In this document: positions 49,379 to 59,961 of the stretch, piece after piece | How the letters are laid out: each line of letters starts with the position of its first letter | Position numbering within the stretch: the stretch's first letter is position 1 | Assembly (NCBI GenBank): GCA_021737145.1 | Contig: JAIPEN010000007.1 | Location: 62,001-126,000 of the forward strand | From: Desulfarculaceae bacterium | Lineage (GTDB): Bacteria; Desulfobacterota; Desulfarculia; Desulfarculales; Desulfarculaceae | Reading direction: 5' to 3' | DNA length: 64,000 nucleotides | Notes under the pieces: generated by a model | Databases searched by the model: none | The model's input: only the letters and a program-made list of their open reading frames with translations | Told to the model about the DNA's origin: nothing | Made by a program: the position numbers and the translations under genes

Positions 49379-50560
49379 TCACTTGGGCGGGGTGATCTTA
49401 TAGCCGCCCTTGTCGTCAAAGGTGATCTCCGCGTCCAGGTAGTAGACCTCTTTGAGCTCGGGGCGCTGGTCCTGCAGCATGTAGTAGGCCTCGCCGCTGC
49501 GGGCTCCGGTGGAGCAGGTGAACACCACCGGCTTGTCCGAGGGCAAGGAGGCCAGCTTTTTCTCCAGGTCGTCGGTGGGGATGTTCACCGAGCTCTTGAA
49601 GTGGCCGGCCTTGTACTCGTGGGGGTCGCGCACGTCCACCAGGTAGATGGCCTCGGGCTTGGTCTTGATGATCTCCTCGAAGACCACCAGGTCCAGGCTG
49701 CCTTCCTCCTTGCCCGCCTTGAGCGAGCGCTTGGCAGCGGTCTTGGCCTTGGCCGGGGCCATTGCCGCGGCCGCGCCCGCGCCGTAGACCTTCTTCCAGT
49801 CCGGATAGCCGGCCGGGTAGACCTTGACGTTGGCGTAGCCCAGGGCGCGGGCCTTGAAGGCCGCCTTGTGGCTCAGGGCGCAGTGCAGGCCGCCGCAGTA
49901 GAAGATGACCAAGGCGTTCTTGTCCGCGGGCAACAGGCCCTTCATCTTGTTAAAGGCGCTGGTGGGCAGGCTCAGGGCGCCGGGGATGTGGCCCTTGGCG
50001 TACTTTTTCATGTAGGGCCGCGAGTCGATGACCAGGCCCACGGTCTTGCCGGTGACCACGTCCTTTACCGCGGCCGCGTCCACCTGCACCGGGAACTGCT
50101 TAAAGGGCGTGGCCGCCCGCTCAGGGCCGCTGGGGCCGGCGCCGTAGTGCTTCTTCCAGTCCGGGTAGCCCTTGGCATAGACCTGGATGCGCTTGTAGCC
50201 CATGGCGTGGGCCTTGAAGGCCCCCTTGTGGCTGAGGGCGCACTTGAGCCCGCCGCAGTAGAAGACCAGCAGGGTGTCCTTGTCCTTGGGCAGCTTGCTG
50301 GCGGCCACCTTGTCGAACTGGCTGGTGGGCAGGCTGATGGAGCCGGGGATGTGGCCCTTGAGGTACTTGAGCTTGTAGGGCCGGGCGTCGATGATCACGC
50401 CCTTGACTTTGCCGTCGGCCACCAGCTTGACCTCGGCTGCATCCACCAGGTTGGGGTATTGCTTGAAAGCCGGGGCCTCGCCGGCCATGACCGGCAGGGC
50501 CAAGGCCAGGACCAGCAGGGCGGCCAGCACCAGGCGCGCCCCCTTGTTCAAATAGTTCAT
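49379..50560 (-). CDS. Exported protein with three rhodanese domains
   Basis: A 393-residue exported protein (signal peptide 1-26, ending PVMAG). There are three rhodanese domains at about 35-140, 150-262 and 288-388. Candidate active cysteines lie in FYCGGLKCALS, FYCGGLHCALS and FTCSTGARSG. Domains 1 and 2 are near duplicates (RPYKLKYLKGHIPGSISLP and RPYMKKYAKGHIPGALSLP), each followed by GYPDWKKxYGAG. Domain 3 is a more standard type (VDVRDPHEYKAGH). It should bind and transfer sulfane sulfur in the periplasm. It ends the minus-strand sulfur operon, 32 bases after the cytochrome c gene, with a perfect AGGAGGTAACC site. Confidence 0.9.
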   Translation of the reverse strand: MNYLNKGARLVLAALLVLALALPVMAGEAPAFKQYPNLVDAAEVKLVADGKVKGVIIDARPYKLKYLKGHIPGSISLPTSQFDKVAASKLPKDKDTLLVFYCGGLKCALSHKGAFKAHAMGYKRIQVYAKGYPDWKKHYGAGPSGPERAATPFKQFPVQVDAAAVKDVVTGKTVGLVIDSRPYMKKYAKGHIPGALSLPTSAFNKMKGLLPADKNALVIFYCGGLHCALSHKAAFKARALGYANVKVYPAGYPDWKKVYGAGAAAAMAPAKAKTAAKRSLKAGKEEGSLDLVVFEEIIKTKPEAIYLVDVRDPHEYKAGHFKSSVNIPTDDLEKKLASLPSDKPVVFTCSTGARSGEAYYMLQDQRPELKEVYYLDAEITFDDKGGYKITPPK

Positions 50561-50592: not shown

Positions 50593-50913
50593 TTATTTGC
50601 ACTTGGCCGGGCTGGGCGAGTCCGCCGCGTGGCCGTGCAGATAGGCGTAGATGTCGGCCAGATCCTTGTCGGTGATCTTGGGCCACTTGGGCTTGCAGGG
50701 AATCTTGTTCTGGTTGAACAGCTCGGCCCATTTGGCCTGCTTGTAGGTGGACGGGCTCAGGTCCTTGGCCGGGCCCTTGGCGCTGTGGCAGGTGCGGCAG
50801 TTCTTGCGGTAGAGATACTTTCCCTTGCGCCAGTTGCCCTCGGACAGGGCCGGTCCCAGGCTGGCCAGCAGCAATAGCGCCGCCAGAGCCATGGCGAAAA
50901 CCGTCTTGATCAT
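50593..50913 (-). CDS. Small monohaem cytochrome c
   Basis: A 106-residue exported protein with a signal peptide (1-24, ending GPALS) and one haem motif, CRTCH, in YRKNCRTCHSAKGPAKDLSP. A Met ligand is not obvious; TDKDLADIYAYLHGHAADSP is the C-terminal helix. It is likely a periplasmic electron carrier for the Mo/NrfD complex encoded upstream. It lies 58 bases after the ferredoxin stop, with GGAGGCAACC before the ATG. Confidence 0.88.
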   Translation of the reverse strand: MIKTVFAMALAALLLLASLGPALSEGNWRKGKYLYRKNCRTCHSAKGPAKDLSPSTYKQAKWAELFNQNKIPCKPKWPKITDKDLADIYAYLHGHAADSPSPAKCK

Positions 50914-50971: not shown

Positions 50972-51601
50972 TCAGCTCGTTCGCCAGAAATCGGGGGGCA
51001 TGTGCATCCCGCCGGGCAGGGTGGGGGTAACCGCCCAGTCCAGCAGCAGGGTGCCCTTGGTGTAATAGATGTTGGGTTCGGTGTGCACCTGGGGCGAGTT
51101 GACCGTCACCAGCTTCTGGCCAGCGGCCAGCTTGCTCACCGCGCTTTCGGGGTCGTTCAGGTCGCCGAAGACCCGCGCCTTGGTGGGGCAGGTCTCCACG
51201 CAGGCGGGCTGCTCTCCCCGGACCAGGCGGTGCAGGCAAAAGTCGCACTTGTCGGCCACCCGGGTCTTGGGGTCGCGGAAGCGGGCGCCGTAGGGGCAGG
51301 CGGTCACGCAGTTGCCGCAGCCGATGCACTTCTTGGGGTCGATGGCCACCACCCCGTTGGGCAGGCGGTAGGTGGCGTTCACCGGGCAGGCGGCCACGCA
51401 GGAGGGCTGGGAGCACTGCATGCACTGGCCCGGCTGGAACTGGGTGCGCAGCCCCTCGGCCCCGCCGTTGTGCTTTACCCAGTTGCGCCAATAGCCGTCG
51501 GGCACCTGGTTTTCCACCTTGCAGGCGATCATGCAGGCCTTGCAGTCAAAGCACTTGTCGGTCTGCACCACGATGGCCAGGCGTTTTTCTTTCTGTTCCA
51601 T
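50972..51601 (-). CDS. Four-cluster ferredoxin subunit of Mo oxidoreductase (PsrB/PhsB-like)
   Basis: A 209-residue iron-sulfur protein with four cysteine groups: CFDCKACMIACKVENQVP, then CMQCSQPSCVAACPVNATY, CIGCGNCVTACPYGARF and CDFCLHRLVRGEQPACVETC, each suited to a [4Fe-4S] cluster. This is the electron-transfer subunit of complex iron-sulfur molybdoenzymes. It has no signal peptide and would be exported by hitch-hiking with the Tat-dependent catalytic subunit. Its ATG overlaps the stop of that subunit (TGATG). Confidence 0.93.
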   Translation of the reverse strand: MEQKEKRLAIVVQTDKCFDCKACMIACKVENQVPDGYWRNWVKHNGGAEGLRTQFQPGQCMQCSQPSCVAACPVNATYRLPNGVVAIDPKKCIGCGNCVTACPYGARFRDPKTRVADKCDFCLHRLVRGEQPACVETCPTKARVFGDLNDPESAVSKLAAGQKLVTVNSPQVHTEPNIYYTKGTLLLDWAVTPTLPGGMHMPPDFWRTS

Positions 51602-53799
51602 CAGCTTCGCACCTTTTCAACCGTGACCAGGGTTTCATGCATGGCCATGTTGCCCGAGACCTCGTCGGCCTCGTCCTTGAGCACCCGGGAAAGGCAGGCG
51701 CCCTTGCCGTAGATGTTCTTTAGCCAGGTGGACAGGGGGCCGAAGCCGGTGTCCATGTACACCGTGTCCGGCCGTATCTCCTGGGTCACCCGCGCCTTTA
51801 GCTCCACCGCGCCCGCCGGGCTGGCCACCCGCAGCATCTGGCCCGAAGTGATGCCCAGGCGCGCGGCCGGCTCGGGGTTGATCCACAGGGTGTTCTCGTC
51901 CTCCAGCTGGGCGAGCAGGGCGTTGTTGGTGCTGGAGCTCTGGGAGATGTAGGCGTTGCGTCCCACCACCATGCGGAAGCGGTCCTGGGGCACCCGGGGG
52001 CGGGCCCGGTAAACCGGCAGGGGGGACACCCCGTTTTCCTTGTAGCGGTCGTTGTAGAGCTCGACCTTGGTGGAGCGGGTGCGGAAGGGCTTGTTCTTGT
52101 GCACCCCGTGCACCGGCCCGGTGAGGTTGTAGACTCCCTGCTCCTTTAGCGCGGTGGTCACCTGGGGCAGGTCCTTGAGCTGGGCCGCCCGGAAGTCGGC
52201 GATGGTGAAGTCGAAGTGCTCCTCCAGGCCCAGGCGGCCGGCCAGCTCCTTAATGATCCAGAAAACCGGGCGGCTCTGGTACATGGCCGGCACCACCGGA
52301 TCGCGCATCACCATGCCCGAACAGGCCGAAGAGCCCTGGAAGGAGGAGACCGGGTCCTCGCGCTCCAAATAGGTGGGCGCGGGCAGCACCAGGTCGGCCA
52401 TCCAGGCGGTGTCGCTCATGGCGATGTCCACCGTGATCATGAAATCCAGCTGAGAGATCATCTCCACGGTCTTGGCCTGGTTGGCCCCGGTCTGCATGGG
52501 GTTGGTCTTGTAGGTGAAAAAGCCCTTCACCGGATAAGGCTTGCCCTCTATCACCGCGTCGCGGGTGTACTTGAATGAGCCCTCCTCGGGGAACATCATC
52601 TTGGCCCGGCCAGCGTCCACCCGGTCCTCGGGGTTGCTATCGTAAAAGGGAGCCTCATAGGGGATGGTGCCGGTTTTGATCTTCTGGGGCAGGGTCAGGC
52701 CGCCGGCTTGGTCCCAGTTGCCGATGAGGGCGTTGACAATGGCCATGGAGCGCCGGATCTGGGTGGAGTCCACGTAGTCGGAGCTGCGGCGGCCGGGGTA
52801 GACCATGGCCGCGGGCGCGGCCTGGGCCAGCTCCCGGGCGATGCGGATGATGTCAATGGCCGGGATGTCGCACTGAGCCGCGGCCCACTGGGGGGTGTAT
52901 TGCCGGACATGCTCGGCCAGCCGCTTGAAGCCGTGGGTGCGCTTGGCCACGAACTCTTTGTCATAGAGCCCCTCGGTGATGAGCACGTTGGCCACGGCCA
53001 GGAAAAAGGCCATGTCCGTGCCCGGCCGGATGGCGTGCCATTCGCTGGCCAGGGCCGCGGTCTTGGTGTAGCGCGGGTCCAGCACCACCAGCTTGGCCCC
53101 GTTTTGCAGGGCGGTGACGATGTCGATGCTGTCCGGGGTCACCAGGGCCTCGAAGCGGTTGGCTCCGGGCATGATGATGTAGCGGCAGTTCAGGGTGTCG
53201 GGGATGGGCACCACGCCGAAGGTGTCCAAAAAGGCCCGGTTGCGGCTGAGCAGGCAGTTGGACTCGTGAGAGATCACGTTGTAGGAGCCGTAGACCTCGG
53301 CGAAGCGGTGCACGAAGGTGGACTGGGTGTCCGTGCCGGCCATGAACACCGTGCCGCAGCGGGTGTACTTCTCGCCGATCTCCTTGAGTTTGGCGGCGGC
53401 CAGGTCCAGGGCCTGGTCCCAGTTTATGCGCTGCCACTTGCCTTCGCCCCGGGCGCCCTTGCGCAGCAGGGGGTACTTGAGGCGGTCAGGGTCGTAGAGC
53501 TGCATGATGCCCGCGTTGCCCCGGGCGCAGAGCATGCCCCGGGACTTGAGGAAATGCGGGTTGGGGCCCAGCTTGGCGACTTTGCCTTTTTCCACCCGGG
53601 CCACCAGACCGCACTTGTTGAAGCACATGTCGCAGGAGGAGTATTTCTTCTCCACGGCCGGTGGGGCCGGATTTTTCTGGTCAGCGGCCAGGGCCCGCCA
53701 GGCCCCGGGGCCGGTGCCGGCCAGGGCCGCGGCCGATGCCGCCGTGCTGAGCTTGAGCCAGCGGCGGCGGGTCATGCCGGTTTTCTTGGTGGTGCTCAT
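51601..53799 (-). CDS. Molybdopterin oxidoreductase catalytic subunit, Tat-exported (PsrA/PhsA-like)
   Basis: A 732-residue Mo-bisMGD enzyme. A Tat signal (TRRRWLKLSTAASAAALAG) precedes the [4Fe-4S]-binding SSCDMCFNKCGLVARVEKGK. The Mo-binding middle has SHESNCLLSRNRAF, whose Cys is the likely metal ligand. Later segments include MVYPGRRSSDYVDSTQIRRS and VGRNAYISQSSSTNNALLAQ. The length fits polysulfide/thiosulfate reductase catalytic subunits (about 750) rather than the longer TtrA. The ATG at 53799 has AGAGAGGCC. An ATG at 53835 overlapping the previous stop (TAATG) would add 12 residues. Substrate is probably a sulfur oxyanion or polysulfide, by context. Confidence 0.92.
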   Translation of the reverse strand: MSTTKKTGMTRRRWLKLSTAASAAALAGTGPGAWRALAADQKNPAPPAVEKKYSSCDMCFNKCGLVARVEKGKVAKLGPNPHFLKSRGMLCARGNAGIMQLYDPDRLKYPLLRKGARGEGKWQRINWDQALDLAAAKLKEIGEKYTRCGTVFMAGTDTQSTFVHRFAEVYGSYNVISHESNCLLSRNRAFLDTFGVVPIPDTLNCRYIIMPGANRFEALVTPDSIDIVTALQNGAKLVVLDPRYTKTAALASEWHAIRPGTDMAFFLAVANVLITEGLYDKEFVAKRTHGFKRLAEHVRQYTPQWAAAQCDIPAIDIIRIARELAQAAPAAMVYPGRRSSDYVDSTQIRRSMAIVNALIGNWDQAGGLTLPQKIKTGTIPYEAPFYDSNPEDRVDAGRAKMMFPEEGSFKYTRDAVIEGKPYPVKGFFTYKTNPMQTGANQAKTVEMISQLDFMITVDIAMSDTAWMADLVLPAPTYLEREDPVSSFQGSSACSGMVMRDPVVPAMYQSRPVFWIIKELAGRLGLEEHFDFTIADFRAAQLKDLPQVTTALKEQGVYNLTGPVHGVHKNKPFRTRSTKVELYNDRYKENGVSPLPVYRARPRVPQDRFRMVVGRNAYISQSSSTNNALLAQLEDENTLWINPEPAARLGITSGQMLRVASPAGAVELKARVTQEIRPDTVYMDTGFGPLSTWLKNIYGKGACLSRVLKDEADEVSGNMAMHETLVTVEKVRS

Positions 53800-53834
53800 G
53801 GCCTCTCTTGCCTGGTTGCGCTTGCTCCGGGCCA

Positions 53835-56800
53835 TTACTTGCCTCCCTTCACCTGCTGCAAGGGCAGGTTGCGGAAGCGGCCGCCGTCCTTGGCCGGGTC
53901 GCCCTTGTAGCCCAGGGCCTTGAAATCCACCCAGCCGCCCTTGCCGCCGTGGGAGCCGGCTCCGGCTCCGGAGAGCTTCTTGAAGTTCACCCCGGCCTTT
54001 TGTTGGTGGCAGGACCCGCAGTAGGGGGCCTTGGCCAGGGTGGTGTGGCAGTCGGCGCAGGACAGGGACTGGTTCTTGGGGGCCACCTCGTGGGTCAGGC
54101 CCCAGTACATGGCCGTGGGCACGAACTCGTACTTGCCGGAATAGGGCAGGCCGGCCTGCTTCATGCCCTCGCGGGCCGCCTTGTCCCAGTCCCAGTGCTT
54201 CCAGAAGCCGCCCCACAGCTTGGGCGCGATGAGGTAGCGGTGCACAGAGTCGGCGATCTGTTTGCCCCGGTGGATTTTAAAGGGATAGATGCGGCTTGAC
54301 GGGTCGGTGATGTAGCCCACCGGCGAGGTAAGCTCGGTGACTCCCTTGTCGTTGATGCGGTCGCCCAGCAGGTGGCGCTTGACCGTGCCGTTGTACCAGC
54401 GGTAGGAGGGCTTGACCCCCTGCTCCCACTGGAAGCTGCCCTTCTTCTTGGCATAGGTGGGCATGCCGTGGGCGTCCTTCTTGGCCTTGATCTTCTTACC
54501 GGCCGTGGACCAGTCCCAATGCACCTTGGTGGGGTTGCCCTTGGAATACACCGGCACATGGCAGGTCTGGCAGGCCACATGCCTGGTGTGCTGATTCAGG
54601 TGCCAGTCCAGCATGGGGCGGCCGATGTGGGGCTTGTCGGTGTGGCACTGCTCGCAGGTCAGGTCGCCCTCGGCCGCGGGCACCGAAATGCTGCGCCCGG
54701 AGATGAGGTGGTTGCGGGTCTTGTGGCAGTCCTGGCAGCGGAAGTTCATGCCCCCGCCGGTCACGCCCATGTGCACGTCGTGGCTCTTGTCGGGCTTGGC
54801 CATCACCGAGCTCATGTCCCCGTGCTTGACCGCGTCGCCGCCGCCGCCCACGAAGTGGCAGTTCATGCCGCAGGTGGCCCGGCTGGGACGGCCCACGTTT
54901 TTGGCCACCCTGACCAGGTTCACGTTCTTGAAGGGCATGCCCGCGCCCTTGGGATTCTTTTGGTACTCCCCGGTGGTGTCGTGGCACACCAGGCAGTCGA
55001 TGTTGGCCGGGTCCTTGAAGTCGAAGCTCTTATCCTTCCAGCCGTAGCCGATGTGGCAGGAGGTGCAGCGGGGCCAGTTGCCGGCCAGGTTGATGCAAAA
55101 GTTGTTGATGGTGTTGTGGCGCTTGCCCAGGTCCACCCGCTTCTCATGCCCCACGGTGTAGGGCGAGGGGCCCTGCCAGTTCCAGTGGGAGGTGTGCAGG
55201 ATGGCCTGGCCCGCCTCCTTGTGGCAGCTCAGGCAGTTTTTGGTCACCTCCTGGGGGGTGACCTTGCCGTCCAGCTTGACCAGGAAATTGTGGTTGGGCA
55301 CCTTCTTGGCGTGGCAGGCCAGGCAGTCGGTGGGGGCCCTGGTCTCCAGGGGGCGCACTTTGGCGCCGCGCACCATGGAGCTGTAGATGATGGGACCGCG
55401 CACATGCGGGGTCTGCTCGGACTCCTTGTGGCAGTCCATGCAAAGCTGGTGATAGGCCCCCTTGAGGCCGGGGGTGTTCAGTTGCTTGGGGTTGAAGGGA
55501 GCGCCGTGGCACACCTTGCAGGCCACGGGTTTTTCTTTTTTGGCCTGCAGCTCGGCCATGCGGATGGGCTTGCCGTAGGTGTCGCCCTTTTCGCGGGGTT
55601 GGCGGTGGTGGCAGATGGTGCAGTCGCCCAGCGCGCCGGCGTGCTTGCCGTGCATGAAGCGCACCGGCTCGTAGAGGTCGGAGTGCTTTTTGATCACCGG
55701 GTCGTCGAGCATGAACAGGCGCACCGTGTCCTTGGGGGCCGGAAATGGCTGGGCCTTGGTCTCCAGGGGGCGCATGGGGTTGGGAGTCTCGGCGGCCAGG
55801 GCGGTGTCCGGGGCGCCGGCCAGGGCCAGGAACAGGCCCGCGGCCAAAACGCTGAGCACCACCGGCGAGAGCTTCTTGGGCTTGGCGCCCAGCACCGGGA
55901 AGATGAAAACGAACACCCGGTAGAGGAACATCAGGGTGGCGATGAGGCCCACGGTGATGAATATCTCGCCCACCGCCGGGAAGTAGGACACCAGCTTGTA
56001 GGGTGGATTGTAGGCCACCAGGAAAACGTTGATGCGGTTCATCATGATGCCCAGCACGAACATGGCTGAGGCGAAGAACAGCCAGCCCGGCGAGCGCCGC
56101 ACCTTTTCGAACAACAGCAGCACAAAGGGCATGATCACCCCGAAGAGCATCTCCACGATGAAGGCGTTGGTCTGGTAGGTGCCGTCAAAGAGATAGACGT
56201 AAGTGCCCCGCCAGGCCATGTCCCCCAGCTTGACCGCCAAATAGATGCCCATGAGCACGGGCATGAAGCGGGCCAGGGGAGTGAGCACGTCCATCTCCGG
56301 CTTGCGGTCGAAGCTCTTGGCCACCAGCAGGGATTCGAAGGCCACCATGGGGTAGCCGGCCGCGAAGGCCGAGAGCAGGAACAACAGCGGCAGGATGGGG
56401 GTGTACCACAGGGGATGCACCTTGGAGGGCGCTATGAGCATCAGGGTGCCCAGGCTGGACTGGTGCAGGCAGGAGAGCACGATGCCCGCGATGATGAACA
56501 GGAACATCACCTTGCCCAGGATGCGGTCCAAAAAGTCCAGGGTGGCCTCGGCCATGTCGCCCAAAAAGACCAGGGGCCAGGCGTGATGCTTCAGGTTCAG
56601 GTTGATGCGCCCCTTGAAGCGCTCGGCCACTATGGGGAGGAACTCTATGTAGAGCACGTGCAGATAGATCATCACGCACATGGCCACCTCGAACAGCACC
56701 GAGTTGGGGTTGTGATTGAAGATGGGGCTGGTGATGTTCCAGTAGCGGCCGATGTCCACCAAGAGACCCAGCACCACGAAGGTGTAGCCCAGCATGGCCG

Positions 56801-57086
56801 TGAGCAGGGCCGGGCGGATGACCGCATGGTACTGGTCGCGGTTGAACACGTAGGCGATGAGGCCGGTGGTGAAGCCGCCCGCGGCCAGGGCCACGCCGGT
56901 GGCCACGTCCACCGCGATCCAGATGCCCCAGGGGAACTGGTTGTTGAGGTTGCTTACCTTGCCGATGCCGAAGATGAAGCGGGCGGCGATAAAGGCCCCG
57001 CCGATGGCCATCAAGGCCAGCATTACCATCACCCCGGGGGTGAGGAATTTTTCCTCGACCGGGGCCGCTGCTTCGTGCTTACTCAT
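53835..57086 (-). CDS. NrfD-type membrane protein fused to a 13-haem cytochrome (octahaem tetrathionate reductase-like)
   Basis: A 1083-residue fusion. Residues 15-430 hold about ten helices of the NrfD/HybB quinone-reactive family (NQFPWGIWIAVDVATGVALA; YNPPYKLVSYFPAVGEIFIT). Residues 480-1030 carry thirteen haem motifs: CxxCH at C489, 523, 549, 588, 618, 674, 698, 784, 811, 839, 1010 and 1023, plus a CX3CH (CGMNCH) at 739. The segment from 610 onward, with NNFCINLAGNWPRCTSCHIG, IDCLVCHDTTGEYQKNPKGA, HFVGGGGDAVKHGD and KVHWDWSTAGK, resembles octahaem tetrathionate reductases. It links the quinone pool to periplasmic sulfur chemistry. It overlaps the upstream ferredoxin gene by 8 bases. Confidence 0.9.
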   Translation of the reverse strand: MSKHEAAAPVEEKFLTPGVMVMLALMAIGGAFIAARFIFGIGKVSNLNNQFPWGIWIAVDVATGVALAAGGFTTGLIAYVFNRDQYHAVIRPALLTAMLGYTFVVLGLLVDIGRYWNITSPIFNHNPNSVLFEVAMCVMIYLHVLYIEFLPIVAERFKGRINLNLKHHAWPLVFLGDMAEATLDFLDRILGKVMFLFIIAGIVLSCLHQSSLGTLMLIAPSKVHPLWYTPILPLLFLLSAFAAGYPMVAFESLLVAKSFDRKPEMDVLTPLARFMPVLMGIYLAVKLGDMAWRGTYVYLFDGTYQTNAFIVEMLFGVIMPFVLLLFEKVRRSPGWLFFASAMFVLGIMMNRINVFLVAYNPPYKLVSYFPAVGEIFITVGLIATLMFLYRVFVFIFPVLGAKPKKLSPVVLSVLAAGLFLALAGAPDTALAAETPNPMRPLETKAQPFPAPKDTVRLFMLDDPVIKKHSDLYEPVRFMHGKHAGALGDCTICHHRQPREKGDTYGKPIRMAELQAKKEKPVACKVCHGAPFNPKQLNTPGLKGAYHQLCMDCHKESEQTPHVRGPIIYSSMVRGAKVRPLETRAPTDCLACHAKKVPNHNFLVKLDGKVTPQEVTKNCLSCHKEAGQAILHTSHWNWQGPSPYTVGHEKRVDLGKRHNTINNFCINLAGNWPRCTSCHIGYGWKDKSFDFKDPANIDCLVCHDTTGEYQKNPKGAGMPFKNVNLVRVAKNVGRPSRATCGMNCHFVGGGGDAVKHGDMSSVMAKPDKSHDVHMGVTGGGMNFRCQDCHKTRNHLISGRSISVPAAEGDLTCEQCHTDKPHIGRPMLDWHLNQHTRHVACQTCHVPVYSKGNPTKVHWDWSTAGKKIKAKKDAHGMPTYAKKKGSFQWEQGVKPSYRWYNGTVKRHLLGDRINDKGVTELTSPVGYITDPSSRIYPFKIHRGKQIADSVHRYLIAPKLWGGFWKHWDWDKAAREGMKQAGLPYSGKYEFVPTAMYWGLTHEVAPKNQSLSCADCHTTLAKAPYCGSCHQQKAGVNFKKLSGAGAGSHGGKGGWVDFKALGYKGDPAKDGGRFRNLPLQQVKGGK

Positions 57087-58029
57087 TGCCGGCCTCCTTG
57101 TCCTCTTTTTGCTCCCGGCCGCCCATCTCTGCCTCTTGGCTCTTCTTCAAGTAACCGGACAGCCACATGATGCCGCCCAGCACCCCGTAGAGCCCCAGGG
57201 GCACGGCCAGATAGCTGGTGATGGCGTGCTGGATGGACTCGGTGAGCCGGGGCGGGGGCGTGGGGCTCAGGTCGGGGAAGCCGATGTTCTCAAAGGGCTC
57301 GGAGGCCAGGTAGAGCCAGGAGGTGCCTCCCACCTCGCGCTCGCCGTAGATGCGCTCGTGGTATTTGCCCGGGTTGTTCTTCATCTTCCAGCGGGCCAGT
57401 TTGAGAAGCTGGTCGCGGGGCCCGAAGGTGATCACCTCGCGGGGACAGACCTGGGCGCAGGCGGGCAGGCCGCCGTCCTTGATCTGGGCGAAGCAGAAGG
57501 TGCACTTGCGCACCTGAGGGGTCAGGGCGTCGTGATACTCGTAGGCCGGCACCTGGAAGGGACAGGCGATCATGCAGTAGCGGCAGCCGATGCACTTGTT
57601 GGCGTCGTAGACCACCGCCCCGTTGGGCGCCTTGCTCAGGGCCCCCACGATGCAGGCCGACACGCAGGAGGGGTCGGCGCAGTGCATGCACTGGAACTTC
57701 ACATAGGTGGGGCGCTGGCGCCAGGCCAAGGTTCCGATGTTGTGGGGGTAATACTTGTTGACCACCGTGAAGCTGGTGTCGTCCATGCGCCTCAGGTTCT
57801 CCAGCACCGCCATTTCCTCGAAGGATTGCTTGGGCTGGGGAAGGTGGTTGCGCTGGTTGCAGGCTTGCTCGCATTTGCGGCAGCCCACGCACAGGGTGGT
57901 GTCCACCAGACACCCCACGGCGTTGGGAGAAGGGGCCTTTTTCTTGGCCTCGGCTGCCGTGGCCGAAGCCAAGGGCAGGGCGGCGGTGGCCCCGGCGATC
58001 TTGAAAAAGTTTCTGCGGTTAATTTGCAT
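57079..58029 (-). CDS. Tat-exported ferredoxin with C-terminal membrane anchor (HybA/HmcB-like)
   Basis: A 316-residue iron-sulfur protein. The N-terminal Tat signal NRRNFFKIAGATAAL is followed by four cluster motifs: CVGCRKCEQACNQRNH, CMHCADPSCVSACIVGAL, CIGCRYCMIACPFQVP and CTFCFAQIKDGGLPACAQVC. A C-terminal helix (AVPLGLYGVLGGIMWLSGYL) anchors it to the membrane. This matches the HybA/HmcB type that pairs with NrfD/HybB membrane proteins, as here with the next gene (8-base overlap). It should carry electrons between the membrane quinone site and periplasmic cytochromes. Confidence 0.93.
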   Translation of the reverse strand: MQINRRNFFKIAGATAALPLASATAAEAKKKAPSPNAVGCLVDTTLCVGCRKCEQACNQRNHLPQPKQSFEEMAVLENLRRMDDTSFTVVNKYYPHNIGTLAWRQRPTYVKFQCMHCADPSCVSACIVGALSKAPNGAVVYDANKCIGCRYCMIACPFQVPAYEYHDALTPQVRKCTFCFAQIKDGGLPACAQVCPREVITFGPRDQLLKLARWKMKNNPGKYHERIYGEREVGGTSWLYLASEPFENIGFPDLSPTPPPRLTESIQHAITSYLAVPLGLYGVLGGIMWLSGYLKKSQEAEMGGREQKEDKEAGNE

Positions 58030-58068: not shown

Positions 58069-58296
58069 TCATCCCTTGCGTATGGTCAAGCTGATGCAGT
58101 CGCCCCGGGGCTCTTGATCCACGATGATGTCGGCCGAGCGGGACACGATCTGGGCGATGGACCCGACCAGGTCCTCGTCGTGCACCACCACCCGAAGCAG
58201 CTCGCCCGGGGTCAGGCGGTTCAGGGCGCTTTTCATCTGCAATAGACAGAGGGGGGCGACCACCCCGTTGAGGTCGATTTCGTGCTGCAAGCTCAT
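58069..58296 (-). CDS. TusA-like sulfur-carrier protein with displaced cysteine
   Basis: A 75-residue TusA-fold protein: HEIDLNGVVAPLCLLQMKSA, then LNRLTPGELLRVVVHDEDLV and a final ISLTIRKG. In typical TusA the motif after the first strand is CPxP, with Cys as the sulfur carrier. Here the Cys position is Ala14 and a Cys appears at position 17 (APLC), where the second Pro should be. It may carry sulfur at a shifted site or have lost the function. It is the first gene of the operon; GGAGGGCC precedes the ATG. A TTG start six codons upstream is possible. Confidence 0.78.
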   Translation of the reverse strand: MSLQHEIDLNGVVAPLCLLQMKSALNRLTPGELLRVVVHDEDLVGSIAQIVSRSADIIVDQEPRGDCISLTIRKG

Positions 58297-58328: not shown

Positions 58329-58344
58329 CGCAATAAATGTGCCG
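58329..58344 (-). promoter_or_regulatory. Sigma-54 promoter of the sulfur operon
   Basis: On the minus strand the sequence is CGGCACATTTATTGCG. It matches TGGCAC-N5-TTGCW at all positions except the first and last, with GG and GC exactly 10 bases apart. Transcription would begin about 58317, giving a leader of about 20 bases before the TusA-like ATG at 58296. A sigma-54 activator gene lies divergently at 58549. Confidence 0.85.
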
Positions 58345-58548: not shown

Positions 58549-59961
58549 GTGCGCCCCCAAGAGATAAATCGTCAGCTCGAAGGCATCATCAACACCATGC
58601 ACGACGGCCTGATCGTCATCTCTCCGGACGGGGCCATCGTCATGGTCAACCAGGCCTTTGAAACGCTCACCGGCTATAGCTCCGACGAGGTGATCGGCCA
58701 GCCCTGCACCCTGCTGGGTTGCGACGCCTGCGAGATGACCATCAAGAGCGGCCAGGGCCAGGTGTGGTGGTGCGCCCTGTTCGATCCGGCCCACGAGGGC
58801 ATCAAGCGCTGCCGCTGCAACTACCGCAAGAAGGACGGGTCCTACGCCCCGGTGCTCAAAAACGCCACCATGCTGCAAGACGAGGACGGGGCGCCCCTGG
58901 GCGCGGTGGAGACCCTCATCGACATCTCGGAGCTGGACCGGTTGGACCAGGAGGTGGCCCAACTGGCCGCCCAGTTGGACTCGGTGGACGGCTTCTGCGG
59001 CATCGTGGGCAACTCGCCGGCCATGCAGCGGGTATTTCAGGTGATAAAAAAGGCCGCGGCCAGCGACGCGCCGGTGATCATCACCGGCGAAAGCGGCACC
59101 GGCAAGGAGCTGGTGGCCCGGGCCATTCACCAGACCGGCAACCGGCGGGAAAAGCCCTATGTGCAGCTGTCCTGCGCGGCGCTAAACGAGTCATTGTTGG
59201 AGAGCGAGCTGTTCGGTCACACCAAGGGCGCCTTCACCGGGGCCTACCGTCACCGCATCGGCCGCTTCGAGGCGGCCAACGGGGGAGATATATTCCTGGA
59301 CGAGATCGGCGACATCCCCCTGAGCACCCAGGTCAAGCTGCTGAGGGTGCTGGAGACCAAGCAGTTCGAGCGGGTGGGGGACCACCAGCCCATTTTGGTG
59401 GACGTGCGGGTGATCACCGCCACCAACCGCAACTTGCAGGAGCTGTTGGCCAGCGGAGCCTTTAGAGAAGATCTTTACTTCCGCATCAACGTGATCCCCA
59501 TTCACCTGCCGCCCTTGCGCGAGCGCATGGGCGACGTGCCCGCCCTGGTCAACACCTTCATCGGCCGGCTGCGCCAGAAGACCGGCAAGGAGATCAACGG
59601 CCTGAGCCGCCAGGCCATGGATTGCTTCATGAACCACCCCTGGCCGGGCAACGTGCGCGAGCTCAAGGGCGCCCTGGAGTATTCCTTTGTGGTGGCCGAG
59701 GGCGGCCCGATCCAGCCGGACCACCTGCCACCCCATCTCGCCGGAGGCCACCCGGCCGCGCCCGCCTGGAGCCCGGCCGCCCCGGCCGCACCGGCCGCCG
59801 AGCCCAACGGCCTGTCGGAAAAGGACGCCCTGGTGGCGGCCCTAAAGCAGACCGAGGGCAACCAGACCCAGGCGGCCAAGCTGCTGGGGGTCAACCGGGT
59901 GACGGTCTACAACCGCATGAAGAAGTACGGCATTGAGATGAAAAAGGTGCTTCAGACCTGA
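58549..59961 (+). CDS. Sigma-54-dependent activator with Cys-rich PAS domain
   Basis: A 470-residue enhancer-binding protein starting at GTG after GAGGTGAAAA. Residues 8-130 form a PAS domain with six cysteines (53, 58, 61, 75, 88, 90; LLGCDACEMT and IKRCRCNYRKKDG). They could bind a metal or cluster or sense thiol/sulfur state. The AAA+ domain follows (about 150-390; Walker A GESGTGKE, loop in ELFGHTKGAFTGAYRHRIGR) and then a Fis-type HTH (AAKLLGVNRVTVYNRMKKYG) after an Ala/Pro linker. There is no receiver, so the PAS domain is the likely sensor. It faces the sigma-54 promoter of the sulfur operon and is the obvious regulator. Confidence 0.94.
   Translation: MRPQEINRQLEGIINTMHDGLIVISPDGAIVMVNQAFETLTGYSSDEVIGQPCTLLGCDACEMTIKSGQGQVWWCALFDPAHEGIKRCRCNYRKKDGSYAPVLKNATMLQDEDGAPLGAVETLIDISELDRLDQEVAQLAAQLDSVDGFCGIVGNSPAMQRVFQVIKKAAASDAPVIITGESGTGKELVARAIHQTGNRREKPYVQLSCAALNESLLESELFGHTKGAFTGAYRHRIGRFEAANGGDIFLDEIGDIPLSTQVKLLRVLETKQFERVGDHQPILVDVRVITATNRNLQELLASGAFREDLYFRINVIPIHLPPLRERMGDVPALVNTFIGRLRQKTGKEINGLSRQAMDCFMNHPWPGNVRELKGALEYSFVVAEGGPIQPDHLPPHLAGGHPAAPAWSPAAPAAPAAEPNGLSEKDALVAALKQTEGNQTQAAKLLGVNRVTVYNRMKKYGIEMKKVLQT

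Follow-up and report, generated by a model that had tools for sequence, protein, structure and literature searches.

The cytochrome b/c1 precursor of Bradyrhizobium, FbcH, carries a quinone-site membrane protein and a c-type cytochrome, and its internal signal peptide is cleaved. In Thermosulfurimonas dismutans, octaheme tetrathionate reductase (OTR) is encoded near a multi-helix subunit (TDIS_1882/1883), and a membrane link has been proposed (PMC4911364). The locus described here lies in a stretch of 64,000 nucleotides (the window) from a Desulfarculaceae bacterium; where T. dismutans has two genes, it has one fused gene with a Psr-like Mo enzyme alongside. A ten-helix NrfD protein with an adjacent periplasmic Fe-S protein is common to the Hmc complex, hydrogenase-2 (HybAB), and this operon, and the tetraheme segment of the fusion resembles the C terminus of HmcA. 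However, the cytochrome of the fusion has 13 hemes and is OTR-like, whereas HmcA has 16, and the NrfD part scores below the HmcC cut-off. Unlike hydrogenase-2, the operon had no hydrogenase gene among the proteins scanned, and the HybB score is also below its cut-off. With PsrABC and PhsABC the operon shares PsrA-like and PsrB-like subunits, with the Mo-ligand Cys kept, but no PsrC-type anchor was recognized among its genes. There is also an analogy to FbcH, in that a quinone-site membrane protein is joined to a c-type cytochrome by an internal signal-peptide-like segment; however, the component proteins are unrelated, and cleavage is here a prediction. The open literature searched yielded no account of such a fused precursor or of its internal signal peptide, single main origin, or OTR-less derivatives.

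The fused precursor is encoded by a single intact open reading frame of 1083 amino acids at exactly 53835 to 57086 (minus strand, as for all its parts below), as originally predicted. The gene start has a strong ribosome-binding site (pairing, −11.4 kcal/mol), and the frame shares 8 nt with the Fe-S gene upstream. The NrfD domain (residues 6 to 400; 55887 to 57071) was assigned by profiles and hydropathy to the HybB/HmcC type. Three features place it in the NrfD/PsrC family: a Pfam NrfD match at residues 44 to 358 (6.4e-24; 85.6 bits against a cut-off of 25.8), ten transmembrane helices by hydropathy, with an eleventh at the junction, and an Fe-S partner gene overlapping upstream. HybB was the best-matching type, which agrees with the original call of about ten NrfD/HybB-type helices, although both equivalog tests failed (HybB, 373.5 bits against 450; HmcC, 284.1 bits against 550). 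An AlphaFold2 model of the whole precursor, built from 28 sequences, had a mean pLDDT of 48.9 and a pTM of 0.31, and only its helix pattern matches the hydropathy.

Thirteen heme motifs, the number first counted, follow in a 4+8+1 layout, comprising 12 CXXCH motifs and one CX3CH motif. The first four form a segment of their own, as had been suggested (residues 472 to 600; 55287 to 55673), recognized from profiles, a PDB match, and heme motifs and similar to the HmcA C terminus (CHGxPFNP...PGLKGAYHxLCMDCH). The earlier-noted resemblance to OTR proved strong: residues 610 to 1016 (54039 to 55259) align end to end with Shewanella OTR (PDB 1sp3; E=4e-136), with all eight heme motifs in register, and match TIGR04315 (octaheme) at 539.7 bits, above the curated cut-off of 375. 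In contrast to Shewanella OTR, the fusion adds the tetraheme segment, a 13th heme (C1023 to H1027; 54006 to 54020), and NrfD in front, and it often has a CX3CH motif (here CGMNCH, C739 to H744; 54855 to 54872, found by motif scan, as was the 13th). This motif occurs within the OTR domain in many but not all fusions, and the aligned split and solo OTRs carry CX2CH. The sequence shows that the gene joins a HybB/HmcC-type NrfD protein to a 13-heme cytochrome built of tetraheme, OTR, and one further heme, with what was once the signal peptide of the cytochrome now forming an internal, eleventh hydrophobic helix.

The alignment to the Shewanella enzyme, proposed at the outset as a check on the catalytic heme, revealed that its lysine ligand is kept. 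K754 (54825 to 54827) aligns with position 153 of 1sp3 and C664 (55095 to 55097) with position 64. We take Lys153 to be the ligand of the active-site heme and Cys64 to sit in the active site, as in the structure of Mowat et al. (2004). In 38 OTR alignments from 37 loci, with the window sequence as the reference, the K754 position was Lys in all 38. The C664 position was Cys in 20; the remaining 18 had a TGA in frame, always at that codon. A Cys/Sec swap confined to one OTR position marks it as a likely chemical center. The selenocysteine forms, with INNF-TGA at the OTR Cys codon, are 18 of loci L054, L056, and L072 to L091. The Sec form of OTR is already known, because TIGR04315 is listed among the GenBank-annotated selenoprotein families in a 2026 review (PMC13188914).

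The neighboring genes point to sulfur-compound respiration. Upstream lie a HybA/HmcB-type Fe-S protein (Fer4) with a Tat-like signal (57079 to 58029, minus strand), whose gene adjoins the fusion in all loci with sequence there, and a TusA-like protein (58069 to 58296, minus strand) in which CPxP is changed to xPxC; the 11 operon-linked relatives that were aligned all retain this Cys at its shifted position. Downstream, as the original prediction had it, a PsrA/PhsA-like Mo-bisMGD enzyme is encoded (51601 to 53835, minus strand), with a Tat motif and a first ATG that overlaps the stop codon of the fusion. Its best PDB match was the Thermus thiosulfate/polysulfide reductase (2.6e-114), and the Cys of its HESNC motif aligns with Cys173 of 2vpw, the Mo ligand; the PhsA equivalog test failed (541.9 bits, below the 694 cut-off). 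Then follow a PsrB/TtrB-like 4Fe-4S subunit (50972 to 51601), a monoheme cytochrome c (50593 to 50913), and a triple rhodanese with CxxxxC active-site loops (49379 to 50560), all on the minus strand. The CGGLKC loops of the rhodanese resemble the UxxxxU motif reported for the selenoprotein TsoB, which was also its best NCBIfam match, below the cut-off. TusA-like, rhodanese, and PsrB genes repeatedly adjoin the fusion in relatives, and no Mo enzyme was found within roughly 9 kb downstream of the fusion in L106 and L109. A divergent PAS sigma-54-dependent activator is encoded at 58549 to 59961 (plus strand), and a possible sigma-54 promoter, CGGCAC-N5-TTGC with one mismatch to the pattern, lies at 58330 to 58344 (minus strand); six related loci have promoter-like sites that match the pattern ahead of the operon. 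The PAS domain of the activator has a Cys cluster (GCDACEM, WWCAL, RCRC).

The genome search suggested with the original prediction covered the same order and phylum plus named genomes and recovered 25 contig-complete 13-heme fusions of 1068 to 1113 amino acids (the window and the divergent L119 included), together with several more interrupted by contig ends. The fusion is genuine and widely distributed among sulfate-reducing bacteria and their relatives: independent assemblies of many genomes contain full-length copies, with about 46 to 90% identity. Most hosts belong to the Desulfobacterota (Desulfarculaceae, Desulfobacterales, Desulfococcaceae, Olavius symbionts, and Desulfocarbo indianensis, of which the named strain SCBM carries an intact fusion); one is a SAR324 and one a Myxococcales genome. 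Viral contigs were also scanned and yielded no relative. In the NrfD tree, 33 fusions form one clade (support, 100/99), and the Myxococcales L119 falls outside it on a branch of about 1.7, so that it may have arisen by a separate fusion or be placed wrongly.

Three architectures were distinguished. In architecture A, the full fusion usually has as neighbors the TusA-like protein, the HybA/HmcB-type Fe-S protein, the PsrA-like and PsrB-like subunits, the monoheme cytochrome, rhodaneses, and the divergent PAS sigma-54 activator. In architecture A' (G066/L061 and G101/L062), NrfD and the tetraheme segment form one gene with the same neighbors. In architecture B, the sister group, the operon has Fe-S, NrfD, and a separate 13-heme cytochrome with an N-terminal signal-peptide-like stretch; the Mo enzyme is absent from nearly all of these split operons, L125 being a split case with it. 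The split NrfD genes stop where the fusion junction starts. A split of all homologues at about residue 430 had been named at the outset as grounds for refuting the fusion; with 25 intact fusions this does not hold, and the sister clade alone is split, exactly there. It had also been stated that the parts are separate proteins in known systems, which holds for NrfD in the split operons, but there the tetraheme, OTR, and 13th-heme parts are already one gene.

The junction (residues 401 to 431; 55794 to 55886, minus strand) consists of a basic n-region (KPKK), a hydrophobic core, and a probable ALA-AE cleavage site after A431. All main-clade fusions have the same order: TM10, a short segment that is usually basic, then a hydrophobic core, and finally a small-x-small motif. 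Among the 33 main-clade fusions, mean pairwise identity was 26% in the junction, compared to 84% in TM10 and 66 to 67% in the heme parts. Signal peptidase sites were scored with a simple home-made −3/−1 matrix rather than a trained predictor, a short rule applied to Ala-rich segments. By this score a strict motif was present in 29 of 33 junctions, compared to 40% of shuffled segments, and these counts are not independent, because the fusion sequences are related. After other helices, the same strict score was reached in 0 of 33 sequences for TM3, TM5, and TM7, in 4 of 33 for TM9, and in 14 of 32 for TM1. The four junctions below the strict score all have a small residue at −1. The automatic scan picked an earlier tied motif within the hydrophobic stretch, between A423 and G424, in the window, and likewise in L109; when the junctions were aligned, the site common to the fusions was the one after A431 in the window and between VKA and ET in L109. 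In the window, ten helices precede the junction, and positive charge lies on what should be the cytoplasmic face. An internal signal-peptide-like segment, a conserved signal peptidase I motif, and an even number of preceding helices are the features of an FbcH-like precursor, and together they fit a former signal peptide that would be under selection for export and cleavage.

Of 31 fusions, 21 have an ATG codon precisely where the junction begins, likely a relic of the start codon of the split gene; the window has CTC there. Translation starting internally at this Met could in principle supply a separate cytochrome, but this was rejected for the window because of the CTC and the weak Shine-Dalgarno pairing (−2.4 compared to −11.4 kcal/mol).

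On this evidence, the gene probably encodes a polyprotein that signal peptidase would divide into a membrane-anchoring NrfD protein and a periplasmic cytochrome serving sulfur-compound reduction, and maturation probably leaves two chains. With ten helices inserted, the polypeptide would be back in the cytoplasm at KPKK; the internal signal peptide would then take the downstream part through the membrane, signal peptidase I would cleave after about A431, and heme attachment would take place in the periplasm. Such processing would yield membrane anchor and periplasmic cytochrome in equal amounts. NrfD and the adjoining HybA/HmcB-type Fe-S protein would trade electrons with menaquinol, and electrons would pass through the tetraheme part to the OTR active site (Lys-ligated heme and Cys664) and could also reach the PsrAB-like Mo enzyme via cytochromes. 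Rhodaneses and the TusA-like protein would process sulfane sulfur. Most likely, the system reduces sulfane-sulfur or sulfur-oxyanion compounds, with tetrathionate, thiosulfate, and polysulfide as candidate substrates.

A tentative alternative, compatible with cleavage, is that the cytochrome is mainly an electron conduit that connects NrfD and the Fe-S protein with the PsrAB-like Mo enzyme (and with further periplasmic partners), the active site of OTR being of secondary importance, or dead in some lineages. G066 and G101 retain NrfD-tetraheme and the Mo enzyme, and no OTR was found anywhere in these genomes (96 to 98% complete); because their genes nest within the fusion clade, the OTR part was probably lost. 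C664 is lost in the G306 and L113 fusions, and K754 is also lost in L113, with the hemes kept in both. From these losses, OTR catalysis may not be the role of the fusion everywhere. Moreover, the operon has no NrfD protein other than the HybB/HmcC-type one that is fused to hemes, and since no PsrC-type anchor was recognized, it may serve both enzymes. However, C664 and K754 each show conservation of 90% or more across the aligned fusions, and split operons have OTR without this Mo enzyme. The NrfD-OTR fusion of L111 (9001 to 12300) carries a TGA in frame in place of the C664 codon, and its genome encodes SelB; this Sec codon at the catalytic position argues for catalysis. The RNA fold 3' of this TGA (−9.7 kcal/mol) is too weak to count for or against a SECIS element.

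The original prediction, that a single chain wires the quinone pool to the catalyst, kept its quinone-reactive and multiheme parts, but the unbroken chain itself is weakly supported, given the internal-signal-peptide features and conserved signal peptidase I site of the junction. It would require the junction to be a stable eleventh transmembrane helix, covalently tethering the 13-heme cytochrome to the quinone site. The reading frame is uninterrupted in 25 genomes and maintained across a clade, the junction helix is hydrophobic enough to reside in the membrane, and a tether would favor fast transfer; the signal-peptide look could be an ancestral relic in what is now a plain transmembrane helix. 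Against this, the junction evolves like a signal peptide, at far lower identity than TM10 and with the cleavage motif kept, and the split sisters function without a tether. We therefore regard an uncut chain as unlikely. The fuller proposal, in which a menaquinone site and thirteen hemes would lead to a catalytic OTR as one covalent quinone-to-substrate chain, with a catalytic selenocysteine in L111, also seems unlikely.

Electrons might instead flow in reverse, the complex oxidizing a reduced sulfur compound and reducing menaquinone, a direction put forward for Qrc and HmcC-like quinone reductases. OTR and PSR are, however, known as reductases. Consistent with reverse flow, the NrfD part matches HybB and HmcC best, and these were grouped next to the quinone reductase QrcD in an analysis that suggested Hmc works preferentially toward quinone reduction (PMC6303296). 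Among 13 host and relative genomes checked, dsrA was above the cut-off in 12 and aprA in 10, which makes sulfur-compound reduction an expected use, and we consider reverse flow unlikely. The host genome of the window (G000; 94.7% complete) has dsrA but no aprA above the cut-off, which could be an assembly gap; a congener (G008) has both. Finally, the idea that two genes were joined artificially in sequencing or assembly merits practically no credence; nothing was found in its favor, although the sister group does have two genes here, and it is refuted because 25 intact fusions recur in independent assemblies, including that of D. indianensis SCBM, with a single main clade.

OTR has no agreed physiological electron donor, and the fusion connects it with a defined quinone module and a sulfur operon. 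Confirmed processing would make this another respiratory polyprotein, after the cytochrome b/c1 precursor, in which a signal peptide has been turned into an internal cleavage signal. The split, fused, and OTR-less versions in related genomes constitute a natural experiment on the role of each part. Separately, L127 (3345 to 5687) encodes another NrfD-multiheme fusion, of 780 amino acids with 13 motifs and without an OTR match; its junction is signal-peptide-like, and it is possibly an independent case.
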